The translations under genes were made by a program, and so were the position numbers. The notes beneath the pieces are model-generated. The model had not been told where the DNA came from, made no database searches, and was given only the letters and a program-made list of their open reading frames with translations. DNA of 64,000 bases from SAR202 cluster bacterium. GTDB taxonomy: Bacteria > Chloroflexota > Dehalococcoidia > Lucifugimonadales > UBA2962. The stretch lies in contig JAKUTS010000004.1 in assembly GCA_022447925.1 (NCBI GenBank), forward strand, positions 1 through 64,000, written 5' to 3'. Positions 17,784 through 47,059 of the stretch are shown here, piece after piece. The first letter of the stretch is position 1. Every line of letters begins with the position of its first letter.

Positions 17784-19289
<1,506 letters not shown>

Positions 19290-31156: not shown

Positions 31157-31243
31157 ATATTTAGTTACATTCTACAGTAAAGCGGTAAACTACTGATAAT
31201 CAAAATATAAATTTTATAAAGATAAAACACAAGGAATTATAAA

Positions 31244-32701
31244 ATTCTTTCAACCCTTAAACCATTATTAACTACTGCTGATAAAAAAAGAGTGCTAATA
31301 ACTGTATCGTTTGGTTACATGTTGGTACAACTTTCAAGCTTACCTATAGCTATAGCCATCCCTACTTTAGCATCACAATTTGATGTAGGCGTCGAAGACG
31401 TAGCATTAATGGTCGTTGCTTATCTGACAACATTAGGAAGTTTTGTTTTACTCTCCGCACGTATAGGCGACTATATAGGCCACAATAAAGTATTTATGTT
31501 TGGATTAATAACATTAACCGTGGCCTCAGGAGTTATTTGCACAGCAACAGATCTATGGCAGATAATCGGTTACAGGGCGGTGGCAGGCTTAGGTTCAGCC
31601 ATGATTATGGGTAACGCAAATGCTATGGTTGCAGCTTCATTTAACCCAGAAGAAAGAGGCAGGGCTTTCGGGTTTTTAATAATAGGGGCCAGGCTTGGAA
31701 CATTCATCGGACTGGCTTTATTTGGACTAATGTTGCAATTTATTGGCTGGAGGCCAGTTTTTGCTACGTTTATTCCTCTCGGAATTATTGCAATATGGTT
31801 AGCATTTAATTTGATCAAATCAGATCCTGAATCTGATAAATCTGTGAACATTGCGAAGGTGGGTAAAGCGATTGATTGGACAGGGGCTCTATTCCTGGCC
31901 AGCGGAGCCATAGTACTAATTCTTGGAGGAAATCATCTTCACCAAGGTGAGGAGTCTTTTACCAGTACAGACGGACTTACTTATCATGTTCCTATGCATA
32001 TTGTAGGCCTTCTTTTAATAGTTGGTTTTGTTTTTGTAGAAAAATTTGCGAAAAACCCTGTAATTGATTTAAGTCACTTCAAGAATCGTGCTTTTTCTTC
32101 ATCTTTGGTAACTAACACTATCTACCATTTTTCAATGTTAGGTGCTTTCACCTTAATTCCTATTTTAGTTGAGCAAGGTTTTGGACGATCACCTTTATGG
32201 GTCACAGTGGTTTTACTACCTAGTCAGGCTCTAGGTCTGTTTCTACCCGTGATTGCCGGGGCAATTTATGACAAATATAAGCCAGATTGGCTCCGCCCTA
32301 TAACTCTAATAGCCATAGCAGTTGGGTTTCTAACGATTGGGTTAGTAGCTAACCAAATACCTTTTTGGGCTCTACCACTTCTAATGTTTATAATCTCAAT
32401 CGGGACTAATATGTTTAACCCTATAAATAATGCCACAGTGATGAATTCATTAATTTTAGAGCACCGGGGAATTGCATCTGGCATGCTTGAAACAACAAGA
32501 GAGCTGGGCCATGCATTGGGTGCTACTGCAGCTGCAGCAACCCTTGCTTTAATGCTTCCAAAAAAGCTGGGCTTCATGACTCAAGAAATAATACAAAGCT
32601 CTTACATTGATGGATTTCAACTCGCTGCATTAATGGTTGCTGGAGTGTTGGTGTTTGGCTCACTGATAGCCAGTCTCCATCCAAGAACTAAAATCACTTA
32701 A
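31244..32701 (+). CDS. MFS transporter, DHA2-like, with a probable AUU start
   Basis: This drug/H+ antiporter-type transporter has about 14 hydrophobic helices, with motif A as SARIGDYIGHNKV near residue 60 and an antiporter-type motif C region (GARLGTFIGLALFG). The usual GTG start at 31292 would place the first helix at the very N-terminus and has no usable ribosome site. An AUU at 31244 lies 8 bases after AAGGA and adds LSTLKPLLTTADKKR, a cytoplasmic lead-in like those of homologues. An in-frame stop at 31223 limits the choice. Length is 485 with AUU, 469 with GTG. Substrate unknown. Confidence 0.75.
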   Translation: MLSTLKPLLTTADKKRVLITVSFGYMLVQLSSLPIAIAIPTLASQFDVGVEDVALMVVAYLTTLGSFVLLSARIGDYIGHNKVFMFGLITLTVASGVICTATDLWQIIGYRAVAGLGSAMIMGNANAMVAASFNPEERGRAFGFLIIGARLGTFIGLALFGLMLQFIGWRPVFATFIPLGIIAIWLAFNLIKSDPESDKSVNIAKVGKAIDWTGALFLASGAIVLILGGNHLHQGEESFTSTDGLTYHVPMHIVGLLLIVGFVFVEKFAKNPVIDLSHFKNRAFSSSLVTNTIYHFSMLGAFTLIPILVEQGFGRSPLWVTVVLLPSQALGLFLPVIAGAIYDKYKPDWLRPITLIAIAVGFLTIGLVANQIPFWALPLLMFIISIGTNMFNPINNATVMNSLILEHRGIASGMLETTRELGHALGATAAAATLALMLPKKLGFMTQEIIQSSYIDGFQLAALMVAGVLVFGSLIASLHPRTKIT

Positions 32702-32718
32702 ATAAAATTATTGTTTTC

Positions 32719-33918
32719 CTATAGGTGAATTAAGTTATTTGATCGATCATATATTGACTGGACCACAGGATTACCATTACTTACACCGGTTATGGTTGCA
32801 ATATGAGCTGATCTGGTCATAAACACCTGTGGTCTAAAAAAGTAGACTGCAGTATCGCCTGGTTTTACTTTTTGTTTTGCAGTCGGGTATAGCCAAGCAT
32901 AGTAATCCATCCACTGAGGTATGGGCGCTTCGGCATCTACTTCGTTATTAAGTATGGTGTCTGATCTATCACCAACAAAAGCTTTGTTTATGCTCATCAT
33001 CTCGTGGCCAGCTCCATCAGCATAAAACCCTCCTCCTAAAACTTGAGCTGTATCTCCGGACCAATGAGATACTTCAGTCACATAAACCTGTGCAGGAGTG
33101 CCAACGTCATTTCCATAAATCTGCTGCATCGCCATTCCCCAAAGGGCGCTACCAGGCTCAGCGTCAGTAGCTCCATAGGAAGCAATTAATTCCATGGTTT
33201 CACAAGATGAGCTACCTGGAGCATTTATATGTTTAACATCTAGTCCAAGCTTTGAGTCTAATAACTCAGCTGCTTTGATAATGGTATGCAAATTAGGGCT
33301 TGCGTTCATTGTATGTTTTTCAAAATCATATAAAGCACAAGGAAAGCCAGTGACTCCCACTATGTTTAGATTGTCGAATCCTGATATAAAATCGGCGGTC
33401 TGCAGGACATCGTCAATTAATATCCCTCCCTCTTGCGCAGGGTACGCCATATCATCCTTATCAATGACTTTCAATATAATATCCTGCTTAACATTCAGTT
33501 CAGTCGCAGCCTGAGAAATAAAGCTCGCATGGTCCTTATGATGAACCGTCCATATCTCAGGTTCCATTTTTAGAGCTTCTTTCATGCGGTTTCTTGGAAT
33601 TTGCGATAGATGGCCGACATGGCCAACTTTACAATTTTGTTCATAGAGCACATAAGCACACTCCATATCTACTGCAACGAATGATTCGAATCCAGATTTA
33701 ATAATAGTCTCGATCATAGATGGGTTACGATTAATCTGTTTGGTCATTACATATGTTCTTAGCCCGAGTCGTTTAGCACATTCATATATCTCACGGGCGT
33801 TGCTTTCAACCAGATCTAAGTCAACAACATAACAATCACTTGGTATGCTGCCTTTACGATGCAGTTCTGTTGCTGCCATTACTAAATTTGGGTTTTGCTC
33901 TTTAATTACGTCAAGCAT
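32719..33918 (-). CDS. YhfX-like PLP-dependent enzyme (alanine racemase-type fold)
   Basis: This 399-residue protein resembles the YhfX group, which has an N-terminal alanine-racemase TIM barrel. The PLP lysine is probably in LRTYVMTKQINRNP near residue 60, and the conserved AYPAQEGG and GGGFYADGAGHE segments are present. YhfX proteins are linked to metabolism of amino acids or phosphonates, but no reaction is firmly assigned. It is transcribed divergently from the SnoaL gene at 33988 and converges with the MFS gene, with 17 bases between. Related functions include D-threonine aldolase or amino acid racemase. Confidence 0.75.
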   Translation of the reverse strand: MLDVIKEQNPNLVMAATELHRKGSIPSDCYVVDLDLVESNAREIYECAKRLGLRTYVMTKQINRNPSMIETIIKSGFESFVAVDMECAYVLYEQNCKVGHVGHLSQIPRNRMKEALKMEPEIWTVHHKDHASFISQAATELNVKQDIILKVIDKDDMAYPAQEGGILIDDVLQTADFISGFDNLNIVGVTGFPCALYDFEKHTMNASPNLHTIIKAAELLDSKLGLDVKHINAPGSSSCETMELIASYGATDAEPGSALWGMAMQQIYGNDVGTPAQVYVTEVSHWSGDTAQVLGGGFYADGAGHEMMSINKAFVGDRSDTILNNEVDAEAPIPQWMDYYAWLYPTAKQKVKPGDTAVYFFRPQVFMTRSAHIATITGVSNGNPVVQSIYDRSNNLIHL

Positions 33919-33987
33919 AGGGTATAACCTTTTATAATTTATCCATAAACTGTTAAGTCATTAAGTTATTTATTTAGGGAGAAAGTA

Positions 33988-34389
33988 ATGTTATCACCAG
34001 ATGAAATAAGAGCCATAAACGAAAACTACAGGCAAGATTTCAACAGGCATGATGCAGGTGCCTTGCAAAATTATTATGCAGAGTCAATCTTATGGACTAA
34101 CTCTAGTGTAGAGGGAGAAGTCACTGACCCTAAAGAAGTCTCCAAGCAGTATGAAGATTTTTTTATAACTTTCCCGGATGTTTATCTAGAATTCCTTGAC
34201 GATTTTTCAGAAAATTTTCACAACGCTCACCGATGGATAATGAAAGCAACACATAAAAACGACAGCGGTGAAACTAATGATATAGAGATAGAGGGTTTCT
34301 CGATGTTAATTGTGGATGAGAAAGGTAAGATTGTAAGAGATCACACATATTTTGATGTTCAAAATCTGAATGCCCAATTAGGAACATAG
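33988..34389 (+). CDS. SnoaL-like/NTF2 fold protein
   Basis: This 133-residue protein has the cone-shaped NTF2/SnoaL layout: N-terminal helix (INENYRQDFNRHDAGALQNYYAES), then ILWTNSS, the helix VSKQYEDFFITFPDVYLEF, and a beta-sheet ending with IVRDHTYFDVQNLNAQLG. Such proteins are cyclases, isomerases or ligand-binding proteins, and the role is often unknown. AGGGAG lies about 7 bases before the ATG. The stop is one base before the TTG start of the downstream isomerase gene, so they are very likely translationally coupled. Confidence 0.78.
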   Translation: MLSPDEIRAINENYRQDFNRHDAGALQNYYAESILWTNSSVEGEVTDPKEVSKQYEDFFITFPDVYLEFLDDFSENFHNAHRWIMKATHKNDSGETNDIEIEGFSMLIVDEKGKIVRDHTYFDVQNLNAQLGT

Positions 34390-34390
34390 C

Positions 34391-35995
34391 TTGTCATCTG
34401 AATTTGATATTAAGGAACACATCAAAGAACTCGATAAGAAATCCACGATAAGTCGTCTCTGGAAAAGAGATTATACTTTGTGGGATGATCAAGACGCTGA
34501 AATCAATAACCGTCTTGGTTGGCTTACTGCTGCTGCACAGATGAAAACTAAACTTGAGGAAATTGAAGCCTTTTCCGATGAAATCAAGTCAGAAAACCTT
34601 AAGTATTTCGTATTACTCGGCATGGGAGGTAGTAGTAGGGCAGCAAAAGTCATTCATCGAACGATTGGAGGGAATAACGAATTCCCCACAATGGTACCCC
34701 TTGAGTCAACGGTTCCTTCAACTATCGGAAAAGCATTAAAAGAGATAGATTTAAAAAGTACTTTAGTAATAGTTGCTTCCAAATCAGGTAATACAATGGA
34801 GCCGCTACTAACGTACGAATTATTTAAGAGCGAAATTGTCAAAGCGATCGGTAATGACGAGGCTATGAACCGGTTTGTGGCAATAACAGATGAACACTCT
34901 CCCCTACACGAACTTTCTGTAAAAGAGAATTTCAGGAAAGTGTTTTTAAATCCAAAAGATATAGGCGGGCGGTTTTCTGGCATTACTTATTTTGGCTTAG
35001 TGCCAGCTGCATTGTTAGGTGCGAATATTGGTGCAATGATTGATTCAGGGGAAAACATGAGATCCTTATGCACGCCAGAAAATCCAACTACTGAAAATCC
35101 TGGAGCCCTGCTTGGTGCCACAATAGGCTATCTGGCTAAATGCGGTCAGGACAAACTCACTTTAATCACATCACCTTCCGTATTTGGTTACGGATTATGG
35201 GTAGTTCAGTTGATTGCTGAAAGCCTGGGTAAGTCAGGTAAAGGGGTAATACCTATAGCTGGAGAGCCTTTAATGAAACCAGATCATTACGGAGACGACA
35301 GATTCTTTGTGTACCTTAGGCTAGATACTGACGACAATAAGCAGACTGATAACGGGATCGCTGAAATCAGAAGTAATGGCCATCCAGTAACCACAATTAA
35401 CATGTCAGATATCAACTCTTTCGGCGCTGAAATATTCAGGTGGGAGGTTGCAATTTCTATTGCTGCTTCTATATTGGAGGTCAACCCATTTAATCAACCA
35501 GATGTCCAGCTATCAAAAACTAGCACGCATAAAATTCTGTCGGATTTATCAACTAGTAAATTAATTGCTAATATTGAATCTGACCAAGTAAGTAAGCTTA
35601 ATAGTTATTTAAAATCATGCAGACCTAATGACTATTTTGGCCTACTTGCATATCTACCTCATAACACAAGTATTGATCAGGCTCTAAGGTCAATGCGTGA
35701 GAAAGTAGCAAGAAAATATAAAATCGCCACTACTTTAGGCCATGGGCCAAGCTACCTACACTCAACAGGTCAATTACATAAAGGTGGTCCTAACTCAGGG
35801 ATTTTTCTTATGTTAACCGCCCCTCATACAGATGACATTTCAATTCCTACTAAATCATATACATTCGGACAAGTTACTGATGCTGATGCAATTGGAGATT
35901 TGCAAACTTTAAAGAAACTAAACAGGCGAGTCGTTCATATCAAACTTGCGAACGACTCTTCAGATGCAATATCCTGCTTAACGGAGCATCTATAG
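34391..35995 (+). CDS. Phosphoglucose isomerase-like protein of the TAL-PGI type
   Basis: This 534-residue protein carries both glucose-6-phosphate isomerase signatures: DIGGRFSGITYFGL near residue 195 and NPFNQPDVQLSK near residue 370, plus LLGMGGSSRAAKV and ASKSGNTMEPLLT, which bind the sugar phosphate. The C-terminal HSTGQLHKGGPNSG is typical of the isomerase half of fused transaldolase-PGI enzymes. The transaldolase half is absent, so this is a free-standing PGI of that subfamily, catalysing glucose-6-phosphate to fructose-6-phosphate if active. TTG start, AGGA 8 bases upstream, coupled to the SnoaL gene. Confidence 0.85.
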   Translation: MSSEFDIKEHIKELDKKSTISRLWKRDYTLWDDQDAEINNRLGWLTAAAQMKTKLEEIEAFSDEIKSENLKYFVLLGMGGSSRAAKVIHRTIGGNNEFPTMVPLESTVPSTIGKALKEIDLKSTLVIVASKSGNTMEPLLTYELFKSEIVKAIGNDEAMNRFVAITDEHSPLHELSVKENFRKVFLNPKDIGGRFSGITYFGLVPAALLGANIGAMIDSGENMRSLCTPENPTTENPGALLGATIGYLAKCGQDKLTLITSPSVFGYGLWVVQLIAESLGKSGKGVIPIAGEPLMKPDHYGDDRFFVYLRLDTDDNKQTDNGIAEIRSNGHPVTTINMSDINSFGAEIFRWEVAISIAASILEVNPFNQPDVQLSKTSTHKILSDLSTSKLIANIESDQVSKLNSYLKSCRPNDYFGLLAYLPHNTSIDQALRSMREKVARKYKIATTLGHGPSYLHSTGQLHKGGPNSGIFLMLTAPHTDDISIPTKSYTFGQVTDADAIGDLQTLKKLNRRVVHIKLANDSSDAISCLTEHL

Positions 35996-36028
35996 TATTA
36001 TATTGTCCAGCATATACATGAGGTATTA

Positions 36029-37726
36029 ATGAACCCAGAAGTTTTTAAGCCGGATGGCACAAGGATTGAATACGATGTTGGTACCATTATGCCTGATGGA
36101 ACAAGACTATCATCGGACATATATTTCCCTTCTAAAAGCCGACCTGGTCCATATCCAGTAATATTGTATAGAACTCCATACAGTAACCAGATGGATTACT
36201 TAGTTGAAAGAGGTAAATATTTCTCACAGAACGGGTACGTTGTAGTTTGCCAAGATGTAAGGGGAAGACACGACTCTGCCGGTGAATTCATAAGATGGAA
36301 ACATGAGTTTACTGATGGCAACGAAACTATTAATTGGATAGGAAACCAGGAGTGGTGTGACGGAAACGTAGGAATGGCAGGGCCTTCTTACCTAGGTTAT
36401 GTGCAGTGGCAAGCAGCCTGTATGGAAAATGATTTTCTTAAATGCATAATACCAACTGTAATGAGCGGAGATTTGCATGAGGCGCCTCACTATCAGGGAG
36501 GAGCTTTCCAGCTAGCACTTAATACAACTTGGTCGTTCAGGACAGACGGTAAAACCATGCAGACAATCGATGATTATGACTGGGAAAGACTTTTTTACCA
36601 TCTGCCCATTAGAGATATACCATCCGCTGCAGGGAAAAATATTCCAGACTTTGTCGAATGGGTTGATAATCCAGATTTCAGTGATTACTGGGATGAAATA
36701 AACGTAATAAACAAACTAGAGGCTATTAAAATTCCGTGCCTTCACATAGGTGGTTGGTACGATCTATATCCACAAGGCACCTTGAACCTATTTAAAGGTA
36801 TGCAAGAACGTGGAGGTTCTAAATTTGCCCGTGAAAACCAACATGTAATAATCGGTCCCTGGGTCCATAACGCCAGTGAAACTACAACGGCAGGCGATAT
36901 AGACTTTGGTGTTGATTCAATACTAGATCTAAAAGAAATCGAACTTTCATGGTTCGACAAGTGGTTAAAAGGTATACCGGACAGTTTTGAACAATCATCC
37001 CACGTAAAAATTTTCATGATGGGAAGCAACGAGTGGCGTACCGAGGAATCTTGGCCGCCAAAAGACATAACAAACACCCCTATATTCCTACACAGTAATG
37101 GAAATTCAAATTCTGCTTCCGGAGATGGATTTCTATCTTTTGATAAACCCGGTAAAGAAAAGACAGATGGTTTTACGTACAACCCTATGTTTCCGGTACC
37201 AACCAAAGGCGGAGGCAATTGTTGTGATCCACATATAGTAAATTGGGGAGCATTCGATCAAAGAGAGGTAGAGGCCAGAGCCGATATTCTCGTATACACA
37301 AGCAAAACTCTGACTTCGGAAATGGAAATCAGTGGGCCAATAATACTCAAATTATTTGCGTCCACAGATTGTCGTGACACCGACTTCACGGCAAAATTGG
37401 TAGATGTTTTTCCAGATGGTAAGGCTATCAATTTATGCGACGGGATAATTAGAGGCAGGTATAGAGATAGCACTAAGCAACAATCTCTTTTGAATCCAGG
37501 CGAGGTTTATGAATTCACGATAGATTTATACCCTACTAGCAATGTATTCCTACCAGGTCATAAAATTCGATTAGATATATCAAGTTCTAATTTCCCAAGA
37601 TTCGACCGTAATCCCAACACTGGCAATGAATTCGGTAAGGACTGTGAATTAAAGACAGCAAACCAGACTATATATCATGATGAGAAATTTGCTTCTCACT
37701 TATTATTACCACTAAAGAAAAAATGA
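36029..37726 (+). CDS. CocE/NonD family hydrolase
   Basis: This 565-residue alpha/beta hydrolase belongs to the S15/CocE group (X-Pro dipeptidyl peptidase, cocaine esterase, glutaryl acylase). The nucleophile elbow is GMAGPSYLGYVQW near residue 117 (serine in GPSYLG), the oxyanion tyrosine region is LYRTPYS, and the histidine is likely in IIGPWVHNAS. The C-terminal jelly-roll domain (from about residue 340) is complete. It hydrolyses esters or amides; substrate unknown. AGGT precedes the ATG. It follows the isomerase by 33 bases on the same strand. Confidence 0.88.
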   Translation: MNPEVFKPDGTRIEYDVGTIMPDGTRLSSDIYFPSKSRPGPYPVILYRTPYSNQMDYLVERGKYFSQNGYVVVCQDVRGRHDSAGEFIRWKHEFTDGNETINWIGNQEWCDGNVGMAGPSYLGYVQWQAACMENDFLKCIIPTVMSGDLHEAPHYQGGAFQLALNTTWSFRTDGKTMQTIDDYDWERLFYHLPIRDIPSAAGKNIPDFVEWVDNPDFSDYWDEINVINKLEAIKIPCLHIGGWYDLYPQGTLNLFKGMQERGGSKFARENQHVIIGPWVHNASETTTAGDIDFGVDSILDLKEIELSWFDKWLKGIPDSFEQSSHVKIFMMGSNEWRTEESWPPKDITNTPIFLHSNGNSNSASGDGFLSFDKPGKEKTDGFTYNPMFPVPTKGGGNCCDPHIVNWGAFDQREVEARADILVYTSKTLTSEMEISGPIILKLFASTDCRDTDFTAKLVDVFPDGKAINLCDGIIRGRYRDSTKQQSLLNPGEVYEFTIDLYPTSNVFLPGHKIRLDISSSNFPRFDRNPNTGNEFGKDCELKTANQTIYHDEKFASHLLLPLKKK

Positions 37727-37799
37727 TCAGTCTATTCAATTACCCTGATCCTCTATGTATTATTACAGTTGAAAAATTACGAAATATAAAGGCGGTCTT

Positions 37800-38072
37800 A
37801 TGAGTATAAAAGTTGTTGTATCAATGGATGTAAAAGACTTTGAAAGTTTTGGTAAAGTATTCAACGGCGAAGGGGCAAAGAATGCCCGTGAATCAGTTGG
37901 GTTGATGGCACAGGCACACAAGAACTTAGATGATCCTAGTAATGCGGTAGTGATAGGCACTGCTCCATCCAAAGAAGCATTTATTGGGTTTTTAACTACT
38001 CCCGAACAAGCTGAACGAATGAAATCTGCAGGCGTGGTTTCAAAACCTACTGTCACGTTTTTGGAAAATTAA
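37800..38072 (+). CDS. Small alpha/beta protein of unknown function
   Basis: This 90-residue protein begins MSIKVVVSMDVKDFESFGKVF and alternates strands and helices (VGLMAQAHKNLDDPSNAVVIGTAPSKEAFIGFLT, then a helix and TVTFLEN). The pattern resembles a dimeric alpha-beta barrel (monooxygenase or DUF3764-like), but I cannot assign it. GGCGG lies 4 bases upstream of the ATG. It stands between the CocE gene and the convergent kelch gene, 73 bases after the former. Confidence 0.6.
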   Translation: MSIKVVVSMDVKDFESFGKVFNGEGAKNARESVGLMAQAHKNLDDPSNAVVIGTAPSKEAFIGFLTTPEQAERMKSAGVVSKPTVTFLEN

Positions 38073-38105
38073 TTTTTATATGAATGAGGTTTAAGTGGAT
38101 TAGAT

Positions 38106-39272
38106 TTATTCTCCAGGAGAATATATCTCTATTAAGTTAGACAACTCACGCCTATCAGCGTCTTCTGTTTCTGCTTGACCACCTATAACCATCACATTAC
38201 CATCGTTCATTTTTACGGATGTGTGTTGATGACGCCCGAAAGTAAGGGAAGGACCGATCGACCATTGCCCTGATTCAATATCGTACACTTCAGTCTCCGA
38301 CAATGTATTTGAACCGCCTATAACGATCAACGTGCCATTATCTAATAGATGAGCTGTATGAAGTTGCCTGCCCATCGACAAATCGCCTGTCAAAGTCCAT
38401 GTATCTTCCGACGGATCATAAATTTCAGCGCTAGCTAAAGGACCCGTCCCTCCAACAACTAACACCCGGCCATCCTCAAGTAAGCTGGCTGTGTGAGAAG
38501 CTCTCGCGGTGGTCATAGGTGATACAAGAGTCCATTCACCTGTAGCCTGATCCCATATTTCAGCAGATGTTCGATTCAGTTCTGCTGAATCCATATCTTG
38601 TGTATTTTTGGAGGACCCGCCGGCAGCAAGCACCTTACCATCAGATAAAACGGTCAAAGTAAATAACGCTCTAGATTCGTTCATTTCTCCAGTGAGAGTA
38701 AATTCATCCAGTGATGGACCAGATATTTCAACTGTAGCTACGACGCCTATATCCGCACCACCAGCAACGATAACCGTTCCGTCATTCAGGGTAGCGCATG
38801 AATGCTTATATCGTCCCTTTTTCATTTTTGGACCTTTAATCCACTCTCCACTAGATGAATCTAAGATTTCTGTTGTTTTTAGGCTAACTCTGCGTGTATC
38901 TGCACCACCAATTATCATAGCTCTACCATCTGCTAGAGTGACCCCGCATAGAACTTCGCGCTTTGAGGACATTTCATTAACAGATTTCCATTGACCGGTA
39001 GCAATTTCAAAAATCTCTGCAGTAGCCAACCTCGGGACTCTTTCAGTCGCCCCTCTACCACGTCCTCCAGCAGAAACAACATCTCCATTACCTAGTACCA
39101 AGCTTACAAAATCCATCCTTGCATCAGTCATGTTTGCACCATCACTGAAAGAGCCTAAATCTCTATCTGATTGATCCACGGCTTGAGTTTCAGTTTCTTG
39201 ACTTTCATTAGAACAAAAAACGGTACTTATGATTAGAAGACCTAGGAAAAGTACTTTTAGCATTGTTTTCAT
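38106..39272 (-). CDS. Kelch-repeat secreted protein, copy A
   Basis: The 388 residues start with a signal peptide (MKTMLKVLFLGLLIISTVFC); the cysteine at 20 suggests a lipoprotein, although F at -1 is unusual for a lipobox. A short Gln/Glu/Asp linker leads to six to seven kelch repeats with the recurring LxDGxxxVxGG and TAEIxDxxxGxW pattern, forming a beta propeller that should face outward. It lies 24 bases after copy B, with about 28 substitutions over the shared propeller by eye, so the pair is a recent tandem duplication. The ligand is unknown. Confidence 0.85.
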   Translation of the reverse strand: MKTMLKVLFLGLLIISTVFCSNESQETETQAVDQSDRDLGSFSDGANMTDARMDFVSLVLGNGDVVSAGGRGRGATERVPRLATAEIFEIATGQWKSVNEMSSKREVLCGVTLADGRAMIIGGADTRRVSLKTTEILDSSSGEWIKGPKMKKGRYKHSCATLNDGTVIVAGGADIGVVATVEISGPSLDEFTLTGEMNESRALFTLTVLSDGKVLAAGGSSKNTQDMDSAELNRTSAEIWDQATGEWTLVSPMTTARASHTASLLEDGRVLVVGGTGPLASAEIYDPSEDTWTLTGDLSMGRQLHTAHLLDNGTLIVIGGSNTLSETEVYDIESGQWSIGPSLTFGRHQHTSVKMNDGNVMVIGGQAETEDADRRELSNLIEIYSPGE

Positions 39273-39296
39273 CTTGTGCCTTCCTTTGAATTAGAT

Positions 39297-40505
39297 TTAT
39301 TGCCCAGGAGAATATATCTCTATTAAGTTAGACATCTCCCGTCTATCAGCGTCTTCTGTTTCTGCTTGACCACCTATAACCATCACATTGCCATCGTCCA
39401 TTTTTACGGATGTGTGTTGATGACGCCCGAAAGTAAGTGAAGGTCCAACCAACCATTGACCTGATTCAATATCGTACACCTCAGTCTCTGCTAACGTATT
39501 TGAACCGCCTATAACAATCAACGTGCCATTATCTAATAGATGAGCTGTATGAAGTTGCCTGCCCATTGATAAGTCACCTGTCAAAGTCCATGTATCTGCC
39601 GATGGATCATAAATTTCAGCGCTAGCTAAAGGACCCGTCCCTCCAACAACTAGTACCCTGCCGTCCTCAAGTAAGTTAGCTGTGTGAGAAGCTCTCGCGG
39701 TGTTCATAGGTGATACAAGAGTCCATTCTCCTGTGGCCGGATCCCATATTTCAGCAGATTTTCTATTTAGGTCTGCTAAATCTGTATCTTGTGTATTTTT
39801 GGACGACCCTCCGGCAGCCAAGACCTTACCATCAGATAAAACGGTCAAAGTAAATAACGCTCTAGATTCGTTCATTTCTCCAGTGAGAGTAAATTCATCC
39901 AGTGATGGACCGGATATTTCAGCAGTAGCTACGACACCTATATCCGCACCACCTGCAACGATAACCGTTCCGTCATCAAGACTGGCACATGAATGCTTAT
40001 ATCGTTTCTTTTTCATTTTTGGACCTTTGATCCACTCTCCACTAGATGAATCTAAGATTTCTGTTGTTTTCAGATTAACTCTGCGTTCATCTGCACCACC
40101 AATTATCATAGCCCTACCGTCTGCTAGAGTGACCCCGCAGAGAATTTCACGTTTTGAAGACATTTCATTAACAGATTTCCATTCACCTGTAGATAGTTCA
40201 AATACCTCTGCAGTAGCTAATCTCGGCGGTCTTTGGGTCATCCCTCTACCACGTCCTCCAGCAGAAACAACATCTCCATTACCTAGTACCAAGCTTACAA
40301 AATCCATCCTTGCATCAGTCATGTTTGCTCCATCACTAAAAGAGCCTAAATCTCTATCTGATGTATCTGCTTTGGCTTGAGACTGAGACGCATCTGAAGT
40401 AGATTCTGATTGATCCATGGTTTCAGTTTCTTGACTTTCATTAGAACAAAAAACGGTACTTATGATTAGAAGACCTAGGAAAAGTACTTTTAGCATTGTT
40501 TTCAT
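39297..40505 (-). CDS. Kelch-repeat secreted protein, copy B
   Basis: This 402-residue copy has the same signal peptide as copy A (first 20 residues identical) and the same propeller, but its acid/Ser/Gln linker is about 14 residues longer (MDQSESTSDASQSQAKADTSD). Most substitutions are conservative and spread over the blades, so both copies look functional. It is the first of the two on the minus strand and has its own leader; the downstream GNAT gene lies on the same strand further upstream. Function is unknown; surface ligand binding or adhesion are the usual roles of such propellers. Confidence 0.85.
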   Translation of the reverse strand: MKTMLKVLFLGLLIISTVFCSNESQETETMDQSESTSDASQSQAKADTSDRDLGSFSDGANMTDARMDFVSLVLGNGDVVSAGGRGRGMTQRPPRLATAEVFELSTGEWKSVNEMSSKREILCGVTLADGRAMIIGGADERRVNLKTTEILDSSSGEWIKGPKMKKKRYKHSCASLDDGTVIVAGGADIGVVATAEISGPSLDEFTLTGEMNESRALFTLTVLSDGKVLAAGGSSKNTQDTDLADLNRKSAEIWDPATGEWTLVSPMNTARASHTANLLEDGRVLVVGGTGPLASAEIYDPSADTWTLTGDLSMGRQLHTAHLLDNGTLIVIGGSNTLAETEVYDIESGQWLVGPSLTFGRHQHTSVKMDDGNVMVIGGQAETEDADRREMSNLIEIYSPGQ

Positions 40506-40530
40506 ATTGTGCCTTCCTTAATAAACGCCC

Positions 40531-41097
40531 TCAATTAGTGCCAGTGTTATCAATCTTTAACTTCACATAAGTTACATAACCATCTGATTTATCGCAACTT
40601 TTTCCATTTATTTGCATACATTCGTAATCTATGAAATCCAATTTCTGTGCAACTCGTTGACTAGGGTAATTTTTTTGCTCGCACTTTATAAATACCTTTT
40701 CGAAAATATCCATATTAAATAAAGTTGATATTAGTCCGTTACAACTTCGAGTCGCTAATCCCCTACCACGATGATCCGGGGATACCCAGTAACCTAAATA
40801 TGCACTACTTTCTTTCCAATCCGTAGAGTACACGGTAATTAAGGCTGCCAACACTTTAGATATCCATACACCCAATGTTAAAGATTCCCCCTTTACTTTT
40901 TGTGATTCAAAGTTTCGGATGAGCTCACGGGTATCCGAAATACTTTCAGGGGTATTCCGCCAGGTGGTCCATTTTAAAATATCAGTTTTATTGGCCTTCA
41001 AAAGAGCATTGAGTTCTTCCGAATGGTATACATGCAACGGCATCATATATACGATGTCGTCTACTTTTAAATTTTTTACAGATTCAAATTTATTCAT
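40531..41097 (-). CDS. GNAT family N-acetyltransferase (RimJ/RimL-like)
   Basis: This 188-residue protein has the GNAT fold: LHVYHSEELNALLKAN at the N-terminus is RimJ/RimL-like, and the acetyl-CoA-binding loop is YWVSPDHRGRGLATRSCNGLI (motif A, RGRGLA) near residue 105. The following VFIKCEQKNYPSQRVAQKLDF contains the usual N-x-x-S helix. Targets are probably ribosomal protein or small-molecule amines; none can be named. It ends 25 bases before the kelch copy B start and could lead that transcript. Confidence 0.85.
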   Translation of the reverse strand: MNKFESVKNLKVDDIVYMMPLHVYHSEELNALLKANKTDILKWTTWRNTPESISDTRELIRNFESQKVKGESLTLGVWISKVLAALITVYSTDWKESSAYLGYWVSPDHRGRGLATRSCNGLISTLFNMDIFEKVFIKCEQKNYPSQRVAQKLDFIDYECMQINGKSCDKSDGYVTYVKLKIDNTGTN

Positions 41098-41161
41098 TTA
41101 AAAACCTGAATATATAATATTAGACTTAGGTTAACCAAGCTTCATAAATAAGGAAATTTCA

Positions 41162-42073
41162 ATTAATACCGAAAAGTTTAGTGTAGTTTTAGGTGCTAGT
41201 GGATCACTTGGCCTGTCGCTAGTATCTCATCTGGTAGAAAAAGGCGAAAAAGTAAGAGCTGTAACAAGAACACCTGCCTCATATTGGAATAATCCGGCAG
41301 AAATAGTTCTAGCAGACATATCAACTCTAAGCGGTGCTGAGAAAGCATGCAAAGATGCTTCAGTTGTGTATAACTGTGTTTTCCCGCCAGAAATCGAGCA
41401 TGTTATTAAAGTATGTCTAAAAAATCGATCAAAACTAATATTCGCTGACTGTCTTTCAATCTATGACTGTGGCAGCGGGCCAATGAATGAAAACACCCCG
41501 TATTTAGTCAATAATCGAGAAACTGCAAAAAGACGTGTATTGCTTGAAAATCTCCTGATATCAACTCGGAAATCACATAATTTAAATTTTGTGATAGCTA
41601 GAGGCAGCGACATGTTCGGCCCAGGGGTGATTGTGTCCACTATGGGCTCTACCATTTTCAGAAATGCTCTTGCTGGACGTTCCTCCACTTTAATGGGCGA
41701 CATAGACTTGCCTCATACATACACATATAGCAAAGATTTCGCTTATGCAATGGAGCAATTGGGAACAAGTGATAAAGAAACTGGTGGTGTTTGGCACGTT
41801 CCAAGTGCACCAACCTTAACGACAAATCAATTTTTAGATTTAATATATACCCAGGCAGGAACGCTTAAAAAAGTTAGGCGTTTAGGAAAATCAACTTTGA
41901 ATTTTATGGGTATATTTAACCCTCAAATTCGAGCAGCAAAACGAGAGAAGTTGTATCAATTTGAAAACCCTTTTGTATCAGACCACTCAAAGTTTTCGAA
42001 AACGTTTACAGAAAATATAACCCCGCATGAAATTGCGATCAAAGAGACATTAGATTGGTTTAGTAGTTATTAG
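41162..42073 (+). CDS. NAD-dependent epimerase/dehydratase-like protein with a probable AUU start
   Basis: The nearest ordinary start (GTG at 41366) begins after the cofactor fold. Upstream in the same frame the sequence reads VVLGASGSLGLSLVSHL, the nucleotide-binding GxxGxxG, then an acceptor strand with VLADISTLSGAEKA. An in-frame stop at 41132 and absence of ATG, GTG or TTG before 41366 leave AUU at 41162, 7 bases after AGGA, as the best start (303 residues). The usual YxxxK is not clear: NNRETAKRRVLLE stands at that place. It opens a plus-strand run with LLM, AKR and D-aminoacylase genes. Confidence 0.75.
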   Translation: MNTEKFSVVLGASGSLGLSLVSHLVEKGEKVRAVTRTPASYWNNPAEIVLADISTLSGAEKACKDASVVYNCVFPPEIEHVIKVCLKNRSKLIFADCLSIYDCGSGPMNENTPYLVNNRETAKRRVLLENLLISTRKSHNLNFVIARGSDMFGPGVIVSTMGSTIFRNALAGRSSTLMGDIDLPHTYTYSKDFAYAMEQLGTSDKETGGVWHVPSAPTLTTNQFLDLIYTQAGTLKKVRRLGKSTLNFMGIFNPQIRAAKREKLYQFENPFVSDHSKFSKTFTENITPHEIAIKETLDWFSSY

Positions 42074-42117
42074 CAAAACGCTTAGTAAATATTCTATTAA
42101 AAACATAGGTGGCTAAA

Positions 42118-43086
42118 ATGAAATATGCTTTCGGGGCACTTGCCCAAGGATTATTTGGTAAACCAGAAAACCTTAAATTGCTTGCTAATAACGGCGAGGC
42201 TCTCGGGTTTGACATTATGTGGGTTAATGATCACATCATTATGCCGTCCGACATTAAACCTAATTATCCATATACCAAGACTGGAGAATTCAACGAGTTT
42301 GGAGATCAAGGCGATTATTTAGAACAACTAACTGTCTTATCCTTCTTAGCCGGAATCACTAAAAAAGTTGGACTATTAACATCTGTGATGGTGGTGCCTT
42401 ATCGAGAACCTATAGTAACTGCAAAGGCAATAGCGTCAATAGATGTGCTTTCAAACGGACGTGTAATACTTGGATGTGGTGCCGGCTGGATGAAAGAGGA
42501 ATTTGAGGCACTAAATAGACCGCCATTTAATGAAAGAGGTTCAATTACAGAGGAATACATTAAAATATTCAAGAACCTCTGGATCGATAGTAGTCCTAGT
42601 TTTGAAGGAAAATACGCCTCATATAACGATATAGTATTTGCACCTAAGCCTAAACAACAACCTCATCCGCCGATCTGGATGGGTGGAGAAAGCAAACCTG
42701 CACTAAGAAGAGCTGCCCGACTGGCTGACGTATGGTTTCCAATCATAGATAACCCTCGTAACCCACTTGATACACCCCAAAGATTTGCCGATGGGATTAA
42801 CCAAATGAAAGAAATAGCAGAACTTGAAGGTCGAAACTCAGATGAAATCGGTGTATCCTTCGCGATCAATTTATACGACGACACCAAAGAGCATCAAACC
42901 GCCGATGACAAGCGTAGAGTATTCACAGGCTCACCTGAGCAAATAGCGTCAGATATATCTGAATATAAAGCTCTGGGAGCTGAATGTCTTATGATCGGGT
43001 TCGTAGTTGATCCAAATTCTACTGATGCCACGATTGAGCAAATGCATAGATTTGCGGATGAGATTCGGCCTATGGTCGGCGATTAA
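42118..43086 (+). CDS. LLM class (luciferase-like) flavin/F420-dependent oxidoreductase
   Basis: This 322-residue protein is a luciferase-like TIM barrel. FDIMWVNDHIIMP lies near the N-terminus, followed by VGLLTSVMVVPYREP, RVILGCGAGWMKEEFEALN and HPPIWMGGESKPALRRAARLADVW, all typical of the F420-dependent Class F group. I start at ATG 42118 (GGTGG 6 bases upstream) instead of GTG 42109, which overlaps that site. It probably oxidises or reduces an organic substrate with F420 or FMN. It lies 44 bases after the epimerase-like gene and 46 before the aldo/keto reductase. Confidence 0.9.
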   Translation: MKYAFGALAQGLFGKPENLKLLANNGEALGFDIMWVNDHIIMPSDIKPNYPYTKTGEFNEFGDQGDYLEQLTVLSFLAGITKKVGLLTSVMVVPYREPIVTAKAIASIDVLSNGRVILGCGAGWMKEEFEALNRPPFNERGSITEEYIKIFKNLWIDSSPSFEGKYASYNDIVFAPKPKQQPHPPIWMGGESKPALRRAARLADVWFPIIDNPRNPLDTPQRFADGINQMKEIAELEGRNSDEIGVSFAINLYDDTKEHQTADDKRRVFTGSPEQIASDISEYKALGAECLMIGFVVDPNSTDATIEQMHRFADEIRPMVGD

Positions 43087-43132
43087 GATATTGATAAGAT
43101 AGGTAAATAATAAAAAAGTCGTAGGGAAATAA

Positions 43133-44182
43133 TTGAAATATAGACAATTCGGAAATACTGGATTAGAAGTGTCAGCAATAACTTTTGGAGGCTGGCCTAT
43201 GGGTGGGACACAATACGGGCCCACCGATGACGATTCGACTATTCAAGCAATACATGAAGCAATAGATCATGGAATTACATGTTTTGATACAGCTGCTGCC
43301 TATGGATTAGGGCATTCTGAAAAACTAATGGGGCAGGCAATTAAAAACAAACGCCAAGACATCATTCTCGTCACCAAGGGGGGGCTAACATTTGATCCAG
43401 ACAAACGAAGATTATTTAGAGATAGTTCTGAAAAAGCAATCATCGAAGGTTGTGATGATAGCCTGCAAAGGTTAAATACAGACTATATAGATTTGTATTT
43501 AATTCATTGGCCTGATCCTACGACGCCATTCGAAGAGACTATGAACGCATTAGATCAATTAAGAATGGCAGGCAAAATACGTCACATTGGTGTATCAAAT
43601 TTCATGCCATCAATGATGGAAGACTCTTTAAAATATGTAGACCTAGCTACAAACCAGGTTGGCTATAGTTTATTTGAAAGGCGCGTAGAAAGAGACGTTA
43701 AAGATTTTTGCGAAAAACATGATGTTGGGATAATGGCTTATGGTTCTCTAGCTCATGGAATACTAGCTGAGAAGATGAACTTGAAAACTGAATTTGTAAA
43801 CTGGGATTGGCGCTCTACAAAAAATGTATTCGGCATGCCTTTCTTTAAACCTGATTATTTTGAAAAAAACTTAAACACTGTTGATGACCTCAATACTTTA
43901 GCAAAAGAACATAATGTCACTGTACAAAACATGGCTGTTTCTTGGCTTTTAAGCAATAAGATAGTAACGACAGCGTTAATCGGATTCCGAACTCCTTCAG
44001 AGGTGAGAAACACTATATCAAAAATGAATTTTGAATTAGACGCGGATATGATCGAAAAAGTTGACAAAATTTCTGAAGAAGCATACAAATTTAACGTTGC
44101 TGGCGAAGATATGTCTCCAGCAGTGGGCACATGGAATCCTTGGGATCCTAAACCAAGTAAATTTGGAACTACAAGTAAATAA
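43133..44182 (+). CDS. Aldo/keto reductase
   Basis: This 349-residue AKR has the full catalytic tetrad: D in CFDTAAAYG, Y in the same segment, K in LVTKGG and H in DLYLIHWPD. The NADPH-binding C-terminal part (TALIGFRTPSEVRNTI) is intact. It begins with KYRQFGNTGLEVSAITFGGWPMGG, typical of this group. TTG start, AGGGA 7 bases upstream. AKRs reduce aldehydes and ketones or oxidise sugars; here it is likely to act with the neighbouring LLM oxidoreductase and amidohydrolase. Confidence 0.9.
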   Translation: MKYRQFGNTGLEVSAITFGGWPMGGTQYGPTDDDSTIQAIHEAIDHGITCFDTAAAYGLGHSEKLMGQAIKNKRQDIILVTKGGLTFDPDKRRLFRDSSEKAIIEGCDDSLQRLNTDYIDLYLIHWPDPTTPFEETMNALDQLRMAGKIRHIGVSNFMPSMMEDSLKYVDLATNQVGYSLFERRVERDVKDFCEKHDVGIMAYGSLAHGILAEKMNLKTEFVNWDWRSTKNVFGMPFFKPDYFEKNLNTVDDLNTLAKEHNVTVQNMAVSWLLSNKIVTTALIGFRTPSEVRNTISKMNFELDADMIEKVDKISEEAYKFNVAGEDMSPAVGTWNPWDPKPSKFGTTSK

Positions 44183-44230
44183 TCACGGGGTAGATAATTA
44201 ATTTAATAAATCCCGGCTTTGGAGGGCAAT

Positions 44231-45826
44231 ATGTTTGATCTATTGATAAAAAATGGTTTGATAATAGATGGAACAGGAAACCCTGGCTTTTTTGGGTCAG
44301 TAGGAATAAAAGATAACACGGTAACTATCGTTAGATCTGACTCCGGTCAAAACGCAAAAAAGACTATCGACGCAACTGATAGAGTAGTTTCGCCTGGCTT
44401 CATAGACGTTCATGCTCACTCTGCTTTAATGATTTTGAATGACCCCGATCACTTACCAAAAGTGCATCAAGGTGTGACAACTGAACTTATCGGCATAGAC
44501 GGGAATTCATATGCACCTTTTACTAACCTAGAAGACTTGAAACGAATGATTCAAATCAACTCTGGGCTTGAAGGAACCCCAGACCTGCCCGGTTTTTGGT
44601 CTTCAGTACCTGAATACTTAGACATGTATGATCGCAAAGTATCAGTGAATATTGCGTACATTGTGGGAAATTCTCCTTTAAGAGTCGGAGCTATGGGTTG
44701 GGACCAGAGAGCTCCAACGACTAAAGAGATGGACAAGCAGAAAGGCATACTCAAAGAAAGTATGGATGCAGGAGCAGTCGGTATGTCGACTGGACTAGAT
44801 TACCCACCCGGAAGTTATGCTGACACAGATGAATTAATTTCCCTATCGAAAGAAGTAGCCAATATGGGTGGCATATACCACACTCACGTTAGATTTCCTT
44901 TAGGCGACGGATACCTTGACCCGAATAAAGAAGCGATAGAAATAGGGAGAAAAAGTGGAGTTCCGGTTCACATCACACATTTACTACCATCAGATAATAA
45001 AGGGAAATATAAAGGTGCAAAACCTATATTGGATCTCGTCGAAGACGCACGAGAAAAAGAAGGCATAGATGTAACTTTCGATTGCTTCCCTTATTCCCAT
45101 GGTGGCACACGATTGACATATTTCTTGCCGCAATGGACTGCGGACGGCGGACCAGAGCAAATAATGAAGTGCCTGAAAGATCCTGAGATCAGAAAAAAGA
45201 TGCGAGCAGATATGGATGTCGGGTTTGCTCGTTTAGGGGGAGGTTGGGATGCAGTTATGATCACGTATTTCAAGAAACCTCATAATCAACAGTTTGAAGG
45301 CAAAACGTTAACTCAAGCTGCTGAAATAATGAATACTGACCCGATTGAAGCTTTATTCGACCTACTACTTGATGAAGACTTACAAGTATCATTTCATGCC
45401 CAAGGTATCGACGCTGAAACCCTTCCTTTATTTGTACAACATCCATTGCAAATGGTAGGCAGCGATGCCTTGCTACTAGGAGACTTTCCTCCTGCAATGG
45501 CATACGGCACATTCCCTGTAATAATCGCCAAATATGTACGAGAGGAAAAAAGAATGTCATTGCCAGAAGCAATTAGAAAGATGACATCCTACCCTGCTCA
45601 ACGCCTTGATATACCAGACCGTGGAATACTACGTGACGGAATGCGCGGCGATGTGGTGGTCTTTGACTTTGATAATATTTCAGCGCCAGCAACTAGGTAT
45701 AATCCTAAACAGTTCTCAACGGGAATAGACTATGTGATAGTTAACGGAGAAATAGTAGTTGATCACGGTAAACATACCGGAATACATGCTGGCAGAGCTT
45801 TAAAGAGATCCCAATCTGGCCCGTAA
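44231..45826 (+). CDS. N-acyl-D-amino-acid deacylase (D-aminoacylase) family amidohydrolase
   Basis: This 531-residue amidohydrolase has the metal-binding VHAHS motif near residue 62, YHTHVRFP near 215, VPVHITHLLPS near 245 and a late SDALLLGD aspartate motif, as in D-aminoacylases and related dihydroorotase-like enzymes. It would hydrolyse N-acyl-D-amino acids or similar amides. I use ATG 44231 with GGAGG 5 bases upstream; TTG 44219 is a less likely start. It closes the plus-strand run beginning at 41162; the next gene is convergent, 8 bases away. Confidence 0.87.
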   Translation: MFDLLIKNGLIIDGTGNPGFFGSVGIKDNTVTIVRSDSGQNAKKTIDATDRVVSPGFIDVHAHSALMILNDPDHLPKVHQGVTTELIGIDGNSYAPFTNLEDLKRMIQINSGLEGTPDLPGFWSSVPEYLDMYDRKVSVNIAYIVGNSPLRVGAMGWDQRAPTTKEMDKQKGILKESMDAGAVGMSTGLDYPPGSYADTDELISLSKEVANMGGIYHTHVRFPLGDGYLDPNKEAIEIGRKSGVPVHITHLLPSDNKGKYKGAKPILDLVEDAREKEGIDVTFDCFPYSHGGTRLTYFLPQWTADGGPEQIMKCLKDPEIRKKMRADMDVGFARLGGGWDAVMITYFKKPHNQQFEGKTLTQAAEIMNTDPIEALFDLLLDEDLQVSFHAQGIDAETLPLFVQHPLQMVGSDALLLGDFPPAMAYGTFPVIIAKYVREEKRMSLPEAIRKMTSYPAQRLDIPDRGILRDGMRGDVVVFDFDNISAPATRYNPKQFSTGIDYVIVNGEIVVDHGKHTGIHAGRALKRSQSGP

Positions 45827-45833
45827 TAGTTCT

Positions 45834-46829
45834 TTAGTTTTTATGCCCAAAAACAACTTTAGGGTTGAGTTTCTCGGCCACATTAACAAAGTCATTTAGT
45901 CTCGGTAATAGCAAGGGACTCTGAATCCCTGCATCAATATATTCGTTAATACGTTTAATACAGTGAGCCTGGTCGCCTATCACATAATATTGGTCTACCA
46001 TATCATCGTTAATCAACTTATATATCTCCGCCCTATTTTGATCATGAACAAATTGCCTCAACATAGATAGGTACTTAGTGGGTTTTACTTCATCTATCAA
46101 TAATTCCCCTACAAACTTTTCGCTGAGGATACGAGCTATTCTATATTTACATTCATTAATCAAAGAGTCTGATACTTCGTCAGTTAAACGAATAGGCAAC
46201 ATGCAAGCTATATTAAATAACTTTGGATCCCTTTCATTTTCAGCTAAAGAAATATTTATAATTTCTATTGAGCGATTTATATATGATATTGGCGAATAAG
46301 TATTCAGTATGACCCCATCGGCTTCCTTAGACGCCAGCTTGAGGGCTGTTGGTCCTATTGCAGCCATGTACAAAGGTAATGAATTTTGAACAGGTCGCAC
46401 CGATAAATTTATTGACTTTAAATCATCTCTAATAACATGAGATGTAGATTCAAGCATCTCTCGAATCGCAATCATCGAATGATTTAGCTTTAGTAATGAA
46501 TTCTCGTAGTCTATTCCTAAAATACCAGTGATTAATTGTTTATCACTTCTACCTAAACCCAAGATAAATCTGCCACCGCTTAACCTATCTAAAGTTGCTG
46601 TTCCCATAGCAATAAGGCTTGGCGATCTTGTGAACGGATTAATAACTCCGACTCCCAAGTTAATGCCATTAGTTACTGCAGATAAAAAACCTAGAATAGA
46701 GAGGGTCTCCTCATGAAAATATCTCTCTGTTACCCATAAAGAATCAAATCCTGATTTCTCAGCAGCTCTTGCATATTGCTTTAATTCATCACCTGTCTGG
46801 ACACCATGATGTAATACTATTCCAATCAG
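45834..46829 (-). CDS. LLM class flavin-dependent oxidoreductase with a probable CUG start
   Basis: In this frame the ordinary start (TTG at 46658) lies well inside the protein; upstream sequence still reads as the first strands of the barrel (IGIVLHHGVQTGDELKQYA, then KSGFDSLWVTERYFHEE, which is the conserved FDSLWVTER motif). An in-frame TGA at 46833 sets a limit, and the only start behind the GGGAGG is CUG at 46829, 7 bases later. That CUG overlaps the TGA of the zinc-ribbon gene as CTGA. Length is then 331, normal for LLM proteins. Substrate unknown. Confidence 0.8.
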   Translation of the reverse strand: MIGIVLHHGVQTGDELKQYARAAEKSGFDSLWVTERYFHEETLSILGFLSAVTNGINLGVGVINPFTRSPSLIAMGTATLDRLSGGRFILGLGRSDKQLITGILGIDYENSLLKLNHSMIAIREMLESTSHVIRDDLKSINLSVRPVQNSLPLYMAAIGPTALKLASKEADGVILNTYSPISYINRSIEIINISLAENERDPKLFNIACMLPIRLTDEVSDSLINECKYRIARILSEKFVGELLIDEVKPTKYLSMLRQFVHDQNRAEIYKLINDDMVDQYYVIGDQAHCIKRINEYIDAGIQSPLLLPRLNDFVNVAEKLNPKVVFGHKN

Positions 46830-47059
46830 TTTTCATCCTCCCAGTTTAATTCGTTTAAAAGTTTATTCGCCCACTGCATATATAGATCTTCTAGATCAAA
46901 GCCACAGTGAGGACAATCTATATCACCAAACCTGATCCTAGTATCACAATCGGTACAAAACCTGGATTCACTTAAGAAGGCTAGTACTTTTGACATATTT
47001 GATTGATTATTCATATCATTAAATTTGGCCGTTAAAGTCTCTAATAAACCATTAGCCAA
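46826..47059 (-). CDS. Small zinc-ribbon protein
   Basis: This 77-residue protein has a helical N-terminus (ANGLLETLTAKFNDMNNQSN, SKVLAFLSE) followed by one rubrerythrin-like zinc ribbon, CTDCDTRIRFGDIDCPHCGF, and a helical end. The four cysteines are complete. It is encoded between the VIT transporter (8-base overlap) and the LLM oxidoreductase (CTGA overlap), so the three form a tight translationally coupled unit. TTG start. The ribbon may bind iron or zinc and mediate protein contact; no family name fits. Confidence 0.7.
   Translation of the reverse strand: MANGLLETLTAKFNDMNNQSNMSKVLAFLSESRFCTDCDTRIRFGDIDCPHCGFDLEDLYMQWANKLLNELNWEDEN

Follow-up and report, generated by a model that had tools for sequence, protein, structure and literature searches.

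The window analysed here, 64,000 nucleotides in all (contig C34:1-64000), comes from a metagenome-assembled genome of the SAR202 group (Dehalococcoidia, Chloroflexota), here called G000, which comprises 1.58 Mb in 44 contigs. An earlier note had read three genes of this window (genes A, B and C) as starting at AUU, AUU and CUG, each with a Shine-Dalgarno sequence (SD) at 7-8 nt, a reading that the sequence and the orthologs from congeneric genomes confirm. The features are as follows:

31231-31235, plus strand: SD of gene A (AAGGA), seen in the sequence and kept in congeners
31244-32701, plus strand: gene A, MFS transporter (PF07690), ATT start at 31244; ATT in 5/5 congeneric genomes
41150-41154, plus strand: SD of gene B (AAGGA), with a spacer of 7 nt (8 nt in G003)
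41162-42073, plus strand: gene B, NAD-dependent epimerase (PF01370 from residue 8), ATT start at 41162; ATT in 4/4 congeners
45834-46829, minus strand: gene C, luciferase-like monooxygenase (PF00296 from residue 10), CTG start at 46829-46827; CTG in 5/5 congeners
46837-46841, minus strand: SD of gene C (GGAGG), purine-rich and kept in congeners
46826-47014, minus strand: 62-aa zinc-ribbon-like ORF; its TGA and the start codon CTG of gene C overlap (CTGA); last codon AAC followed by TGA in 5/5 species

In gene A, a spacer of 8 nt separates the SD from the ATT, and the canonical alternative is GTG 31292, 16 codons into the frame. Coding similarity to other families extends as far as ATT 31244, and in one congener (G003) a stop codon lies immediately 5' of the ATT. 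Both the ATT and the SD are present in all five congeneric genomes that have the gene; against the most distant congener (G002), identity at fourfold sites is 35%. For gene B, the nearest downstream ATG, GTG or TTG is at +68 codons, within the Rossmann domain. The ATT and SD occur in all four congeneric genomes with this gene, and in G003 the spacer has changed in length by one base while the SD and ATT are intact. The conservation of gene B carries less weight because three of the genomes are nearly identical there.

Gene C has a spacer of 7 nt between SD and CTG, and runs without a canonical codon until 57 codons in. The CTG and SD are found in 5/5 congeneric genomes, with a fourfold-site identity of 31% to G002. 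In two outgroup homologs (L107 and L108) the corresponding codon is clearly an in-frame ATG, and in a third (L109) an ATG lies just upstream; the CTG therefore appears to be derived. The overlapping 62-aa ORF, whose match to PF12773 is weak and below the cut-off, ends in the codon AAC in all five species. The synonymous AAT is about twice as common genome-wide, and at this position it would give gene C a UUG start.

The frequent TTG starts described earlier for this window are also present: TTG is the first in-frame start codon of priA, birA, typA, secD and secF. Between genes A and B lie two tandem Kelch-repeat lipoprotein-type genes (38106-39272 and 39297-40505, minus strand), about 90% similar and with identical signal sequences; this pair is a recent tandem duplication.

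Near-cognate starts across the genome

The genome-wide scan proposed in the earlier note was run on 1.57 Mb of G000 with a simple gene finder and an SD model. The first criterion, free of SD information, was coding sequence running clearly 5' of the first ATG/GTG/TTG; it flagged gene B, gene C, a second MFS gene (MFS2), a lipoprotein gene and recG. SD-aware scoring, the second criterion, added infC, a fabG-like gene, trmI, map, ham1, a DEAD helicase, a secreted protein and others; most candidates were chosen partly by SD strength. Raw near-cognate calls were noisy unless a conservation filter was applied, and an EM procedure allowing any codon as a start drifted and was not used. Ortholog start contexts were retrieved from the congeneric genomes via chimeric queries, and the scan and ortholog check together yielded about ten further genes with maintained AUU, AUA, AUC or CUG starts:

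infC: ATA in 4/4 congeners
trmI: ATT in 5/5 congeners; Pfam TrmI-like_N from residue 3 of the ATT-started protein
map: ATC in 4/4 congeners; downstream ATG missing in G002
fabG-like gene: ATA in 5/5 congeners
MFS2: ATT in 5/5 congeners
DEAD helicase: CTG in 4/4 congeners
ham1 (Ham1/rdgB): ATA in four congeners, ATT in one
lipoprotein: ATT in 3/3 congeners
recG: ATC in 3/5 congeners
secreted protein: ATC, ATA and ATA among congeners

Where the start codon has changed, as in ham1 and the secreted protein, the change is mostly a swap of one near-cognate for another, and no replacement by ATG, GTG or TTG at the same site was seen among the orthologs checked. In ham1 the start codon shares bases with the stop of an upstream ORF, as ATAG. 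The cases are spread over many contigs of G000, so that the pattern is not a trait of one segment: the 16-kb segment that contains genes A, B and C is not special, and any clustering of cases within it is post hoc.

The scan is supported by a codon null and by an E. coli control. For the null, the 255 G000 genes with an ortholog in G004, the two-species sample on which the comparative rate is based, were examined with each non-canonical sense codon successively treated as a start. A conserved codon with an SD was found in five independent genes, all at ATT, ATA or ATC, and the matches at other codons adjoin those same sites, save for one spurious ACA. The qualifying genes amount to 5/255, or 2.0% (95% CI 0.6-4.5%), and about 98% of starts in this sample are canonical. 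All five genes found by the SD-free criterion have a strong SD, compared with 52% of ATG starts and 64% of TTG starts (p∼0.05). Run on 450 kb of E. coli K-12, the same scan recovered the known AUU genes pcnB and infC among eight calls; about six calls were false, and the conservation filter is therefore needed. Because start codons are generally conserved between close genomes, we placed weight on the distant comparisons.

These comparisons show, as far as sequence can, that the near-cognate starts are real: the reading frame reaches the codons, and codon and SD are retained together across species. In this SAR202 genus, starts at AUU, AUA, AUC or CUG would thus be used by at least a dozen or so genes, probably 1-2% of the gene complement.

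Several candidates were set aside. Two genes, at C12:28036 and C42:53401 (a lipoprotein), were dropped since their frames are not conserved in orthologs, and a CTG-started trHb gene without a congeneric ortholog was not counted. Differences of ATG to ATA between G000 and G004 proved to be low-posterior internal start calls. The prfB gene (RF2; C23:38629-39669, plus strand), also flagged by the SD-free criterion, was excluded for its CTTTGA site, as expected from the programmed +1 frameshift known for this gene. An rnhA-moaC candidate was dropped, its conserved start being a downstream GTG; the single frame itself (C41:47354-48283, plus strand; four congeners similar) joins RNase HI (PF00075) to MoaC (PF01967), so that an enzyme of DNA/RNA metabolism is, unusually, fused to one of molybdopterin synthesis. 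A ROK kinase gene was ambiguous, with GTC in G004, and was not counted. Its strong SD (GGGAGGTG or GAGAGGTG) is conserved (G000 C1:2882, minus strand; L246, L234, L248 and L236) and is followed by ATC in three species and in one by GTC, the start codon of Streptomyces sigR. In G004, a UDP-glucose-dehydrogenase-like gene (L207:3416, plus strand) has an apparent ATA start after AGGAG; G000 has no close ortholog.

Initiation machinery and alternative readings

By the gene finder's estimate, ATG accounts for 71% of starts in the whole of G000, TTG for about 23% and GTG for about 6%; the identical method gives 5.5% TTG and 5.7% GTG in E. coli, unlike G000. Two parts of the initiation machinery can be placed directly:

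19273-19288 of the window, plus strand: 3' end of the 16S rRNA, read from the sequence, with a normal anti-SD (GGATCACCTCCTTTCT)
G000 C9:8603-9169, minus strand: infC, AUA start, SD AAGGAG

The earlier note had raised altered IF3 or altered discrimination by the initiator tRNA as possible causes, and the two fared differently. The single initiator tRNA gene in the genome is normal, showing both the C1xA72 mismatch and the GGG/CCC anticodon stem that are usual for this tRNA, and lends no support to the second suggestion. IF3 matches other bacteria at most compared positions, and the position of E. coli R112 is Asn in 4/4 genus members (including L286-L288), whereas the nearest SAR202/Dehalococcoidia relatives (L289, L290 and L328) have Arg. 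This genus-specific Asn makes a mild relaxation, with weaker discrimination, possible. The AUA start of infC recurs in other Dehalococcoidia in a search of genome contigs with a pattern that had Ile at the start position, which biases its apparent spread upward. The retention of this AUA would make no sense unless IF3 were still discriminating.

These observations bear on the strongest alternative, relaxed start selection, whereby near-cognates become nearly equal to ATG through an alteration of IF3 or of some other initiation component, and ATG drifts to AUU, AUA or CUG without regulatory meaning. The Asn in IF3, the 23% share of TTG and the occurrence of several such genes in a single genus all lend it some weight. 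We nevertheless consider it unlikely: infC retains AUA, the initiator tRNA and anti-SD are normal, about 98% of starts are still canonical, and even at saturated divergence the near-cognate codon is still the same one, without a return to ATG, GTG or TTG at the site. The last of these points, in particular, is better explained by selection for weak starts than by a general relaxation.

It is less probable still that translation starts elsewhere, at downstream canonical codons or, for gene C, in the upstream ORF with a -1 frameshift into the gene. Canonical codons do occur 5-16 codons downstream in trmI, map, the DEAD helicase, the fabG-like gene and gene A, but the one in map is lost in G002, the TrmI-like_N domain begins almost at the ATT of trmI, and gene B, gene C, MFS2, infC, recG and the lipoprotein gene run for 43-96 codons before a canonical one appears. 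Similarly, G001 and G003 have A-AAA-AAC, which could act as a slippery site, in the overlap at gene C, but among the five species compared this heptamer is absent from G000, G002 and G004, and the outgroup homologs have their own in-frame ATG. Finally, base errors that changed ATG into ATT or CTG, a suggestion of the earlier note that the metagenomic origin of the assembly might favor, have a negligible chance of accounting for the data and are excluded by comparison with the orthologs, the same codons being present in 4-5 separate assemblies whose flanking sequences have diverged.

Probable weak starts and proposed control by IF3

Bacteria almost never use start codons of the AUU/AUA/AUC/CUG type, and the non-canonical starts known in bacteria concern single genes or small sets of genes. 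For the SAR202 genus we favor, over relaxed fidelity and with a probability of roughly 0.7, the reading that these are selected weak starts, probably repressed by IF3. The near-cognate codons appear to be placed a few nucleotides, mostly 7-8, 3' of a strong SD. From the known biology of initiation, the initiator tRNA(fMet) is expected to mispair at AUU, AUA, AUC and CUG, and IF3 would destabilise the mispaired initiation complexes; a strong SD would partly offset the weak codon, giving a low level of protein that may rise when IF3 falls. Re-initiation is likely at gene C (CUGA) and at Ham1/rdgB (AUAG): in each, the stop codon of an upstream ORF overlaps the start codon, and ribosomes ending that ORF probably re-initiate at the overlap. 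The AUA of infC would subject IF3 to autoregulation and tie the gene set to the level of IF3. We infer low expression, control by IF3, re-initiation and a joint response of the genes. A more tentative extension, to which we give appreciably less than even odds, is that the IF3 regulon has expanded in SAR202 group II to some 10-60 genes (point estimate ∼28), which would move together with the IF3 level and couple methionine aminopeptidase, RecG, tRNA methylation, Ham1 and transporters to the growth state in this deep-sea lineage.

Among the papers covered by our literature search, none relevant to start codons in SAR202 was found, and the closest parallels come from other bacteria. IF3 represses starts other than AUG/GUG/UUG, and infC itself has a start of this kind, AUU in the E. 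coli gene and ATC in that of Streptomyces (PMC5472188). The SAR202 infC (AUA) shares with this autoregulated system a near-cognate start behind a strong SD, but in the SAR202 genus the feature extends to some dozen or more genes besides infC. E. coli pcnB (AUU) and Streptomyces sigR (GTC) are limited by an inefficient start codon, as the SAR202 genes would be, but they are one gene each; the sigR start is conserved in related species and its repression by IF3 was established by experiment (PMC5472188), whereas in SAR202 we infer such control. In S. aureus, ribosome profiling identified four non-canonical sites including infC (AUA); conserved AUU and AUA starts with an extended SD give about 10% of the AUG output, and the named genes are cvfC1 (AUU), ccpN (AUA) and citZ (AUA), of which cvfC1 and ccpN are conserved between species (PMC13009471). 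The SAR202 starts likewise combine non-canonical codons with a strong SD, while there is no CUG among the named S. aureus cases. Listeria likewise has fixed non-canonical starts, in six conserved genes of about 2,270, including infC (ATT) and rnhC (ATC) (PMC13068326); the difference from 5/255 in SAR202 is nominally significant, but the methods differ.

For this marine group, a gene caller restricted to ATG, GTG and TTG would remove 5-96 codons or choose an unrelated upstream codon, and such restricted calling would misassign N-termini, with effects on signal peptides and cofactor-binding motifs. A dozen or more of these starts kept across species in one lineage, housekeeping genes among them, would offer a test of IF3 as a regulator of a gene set, beyond its role as a proofreader.
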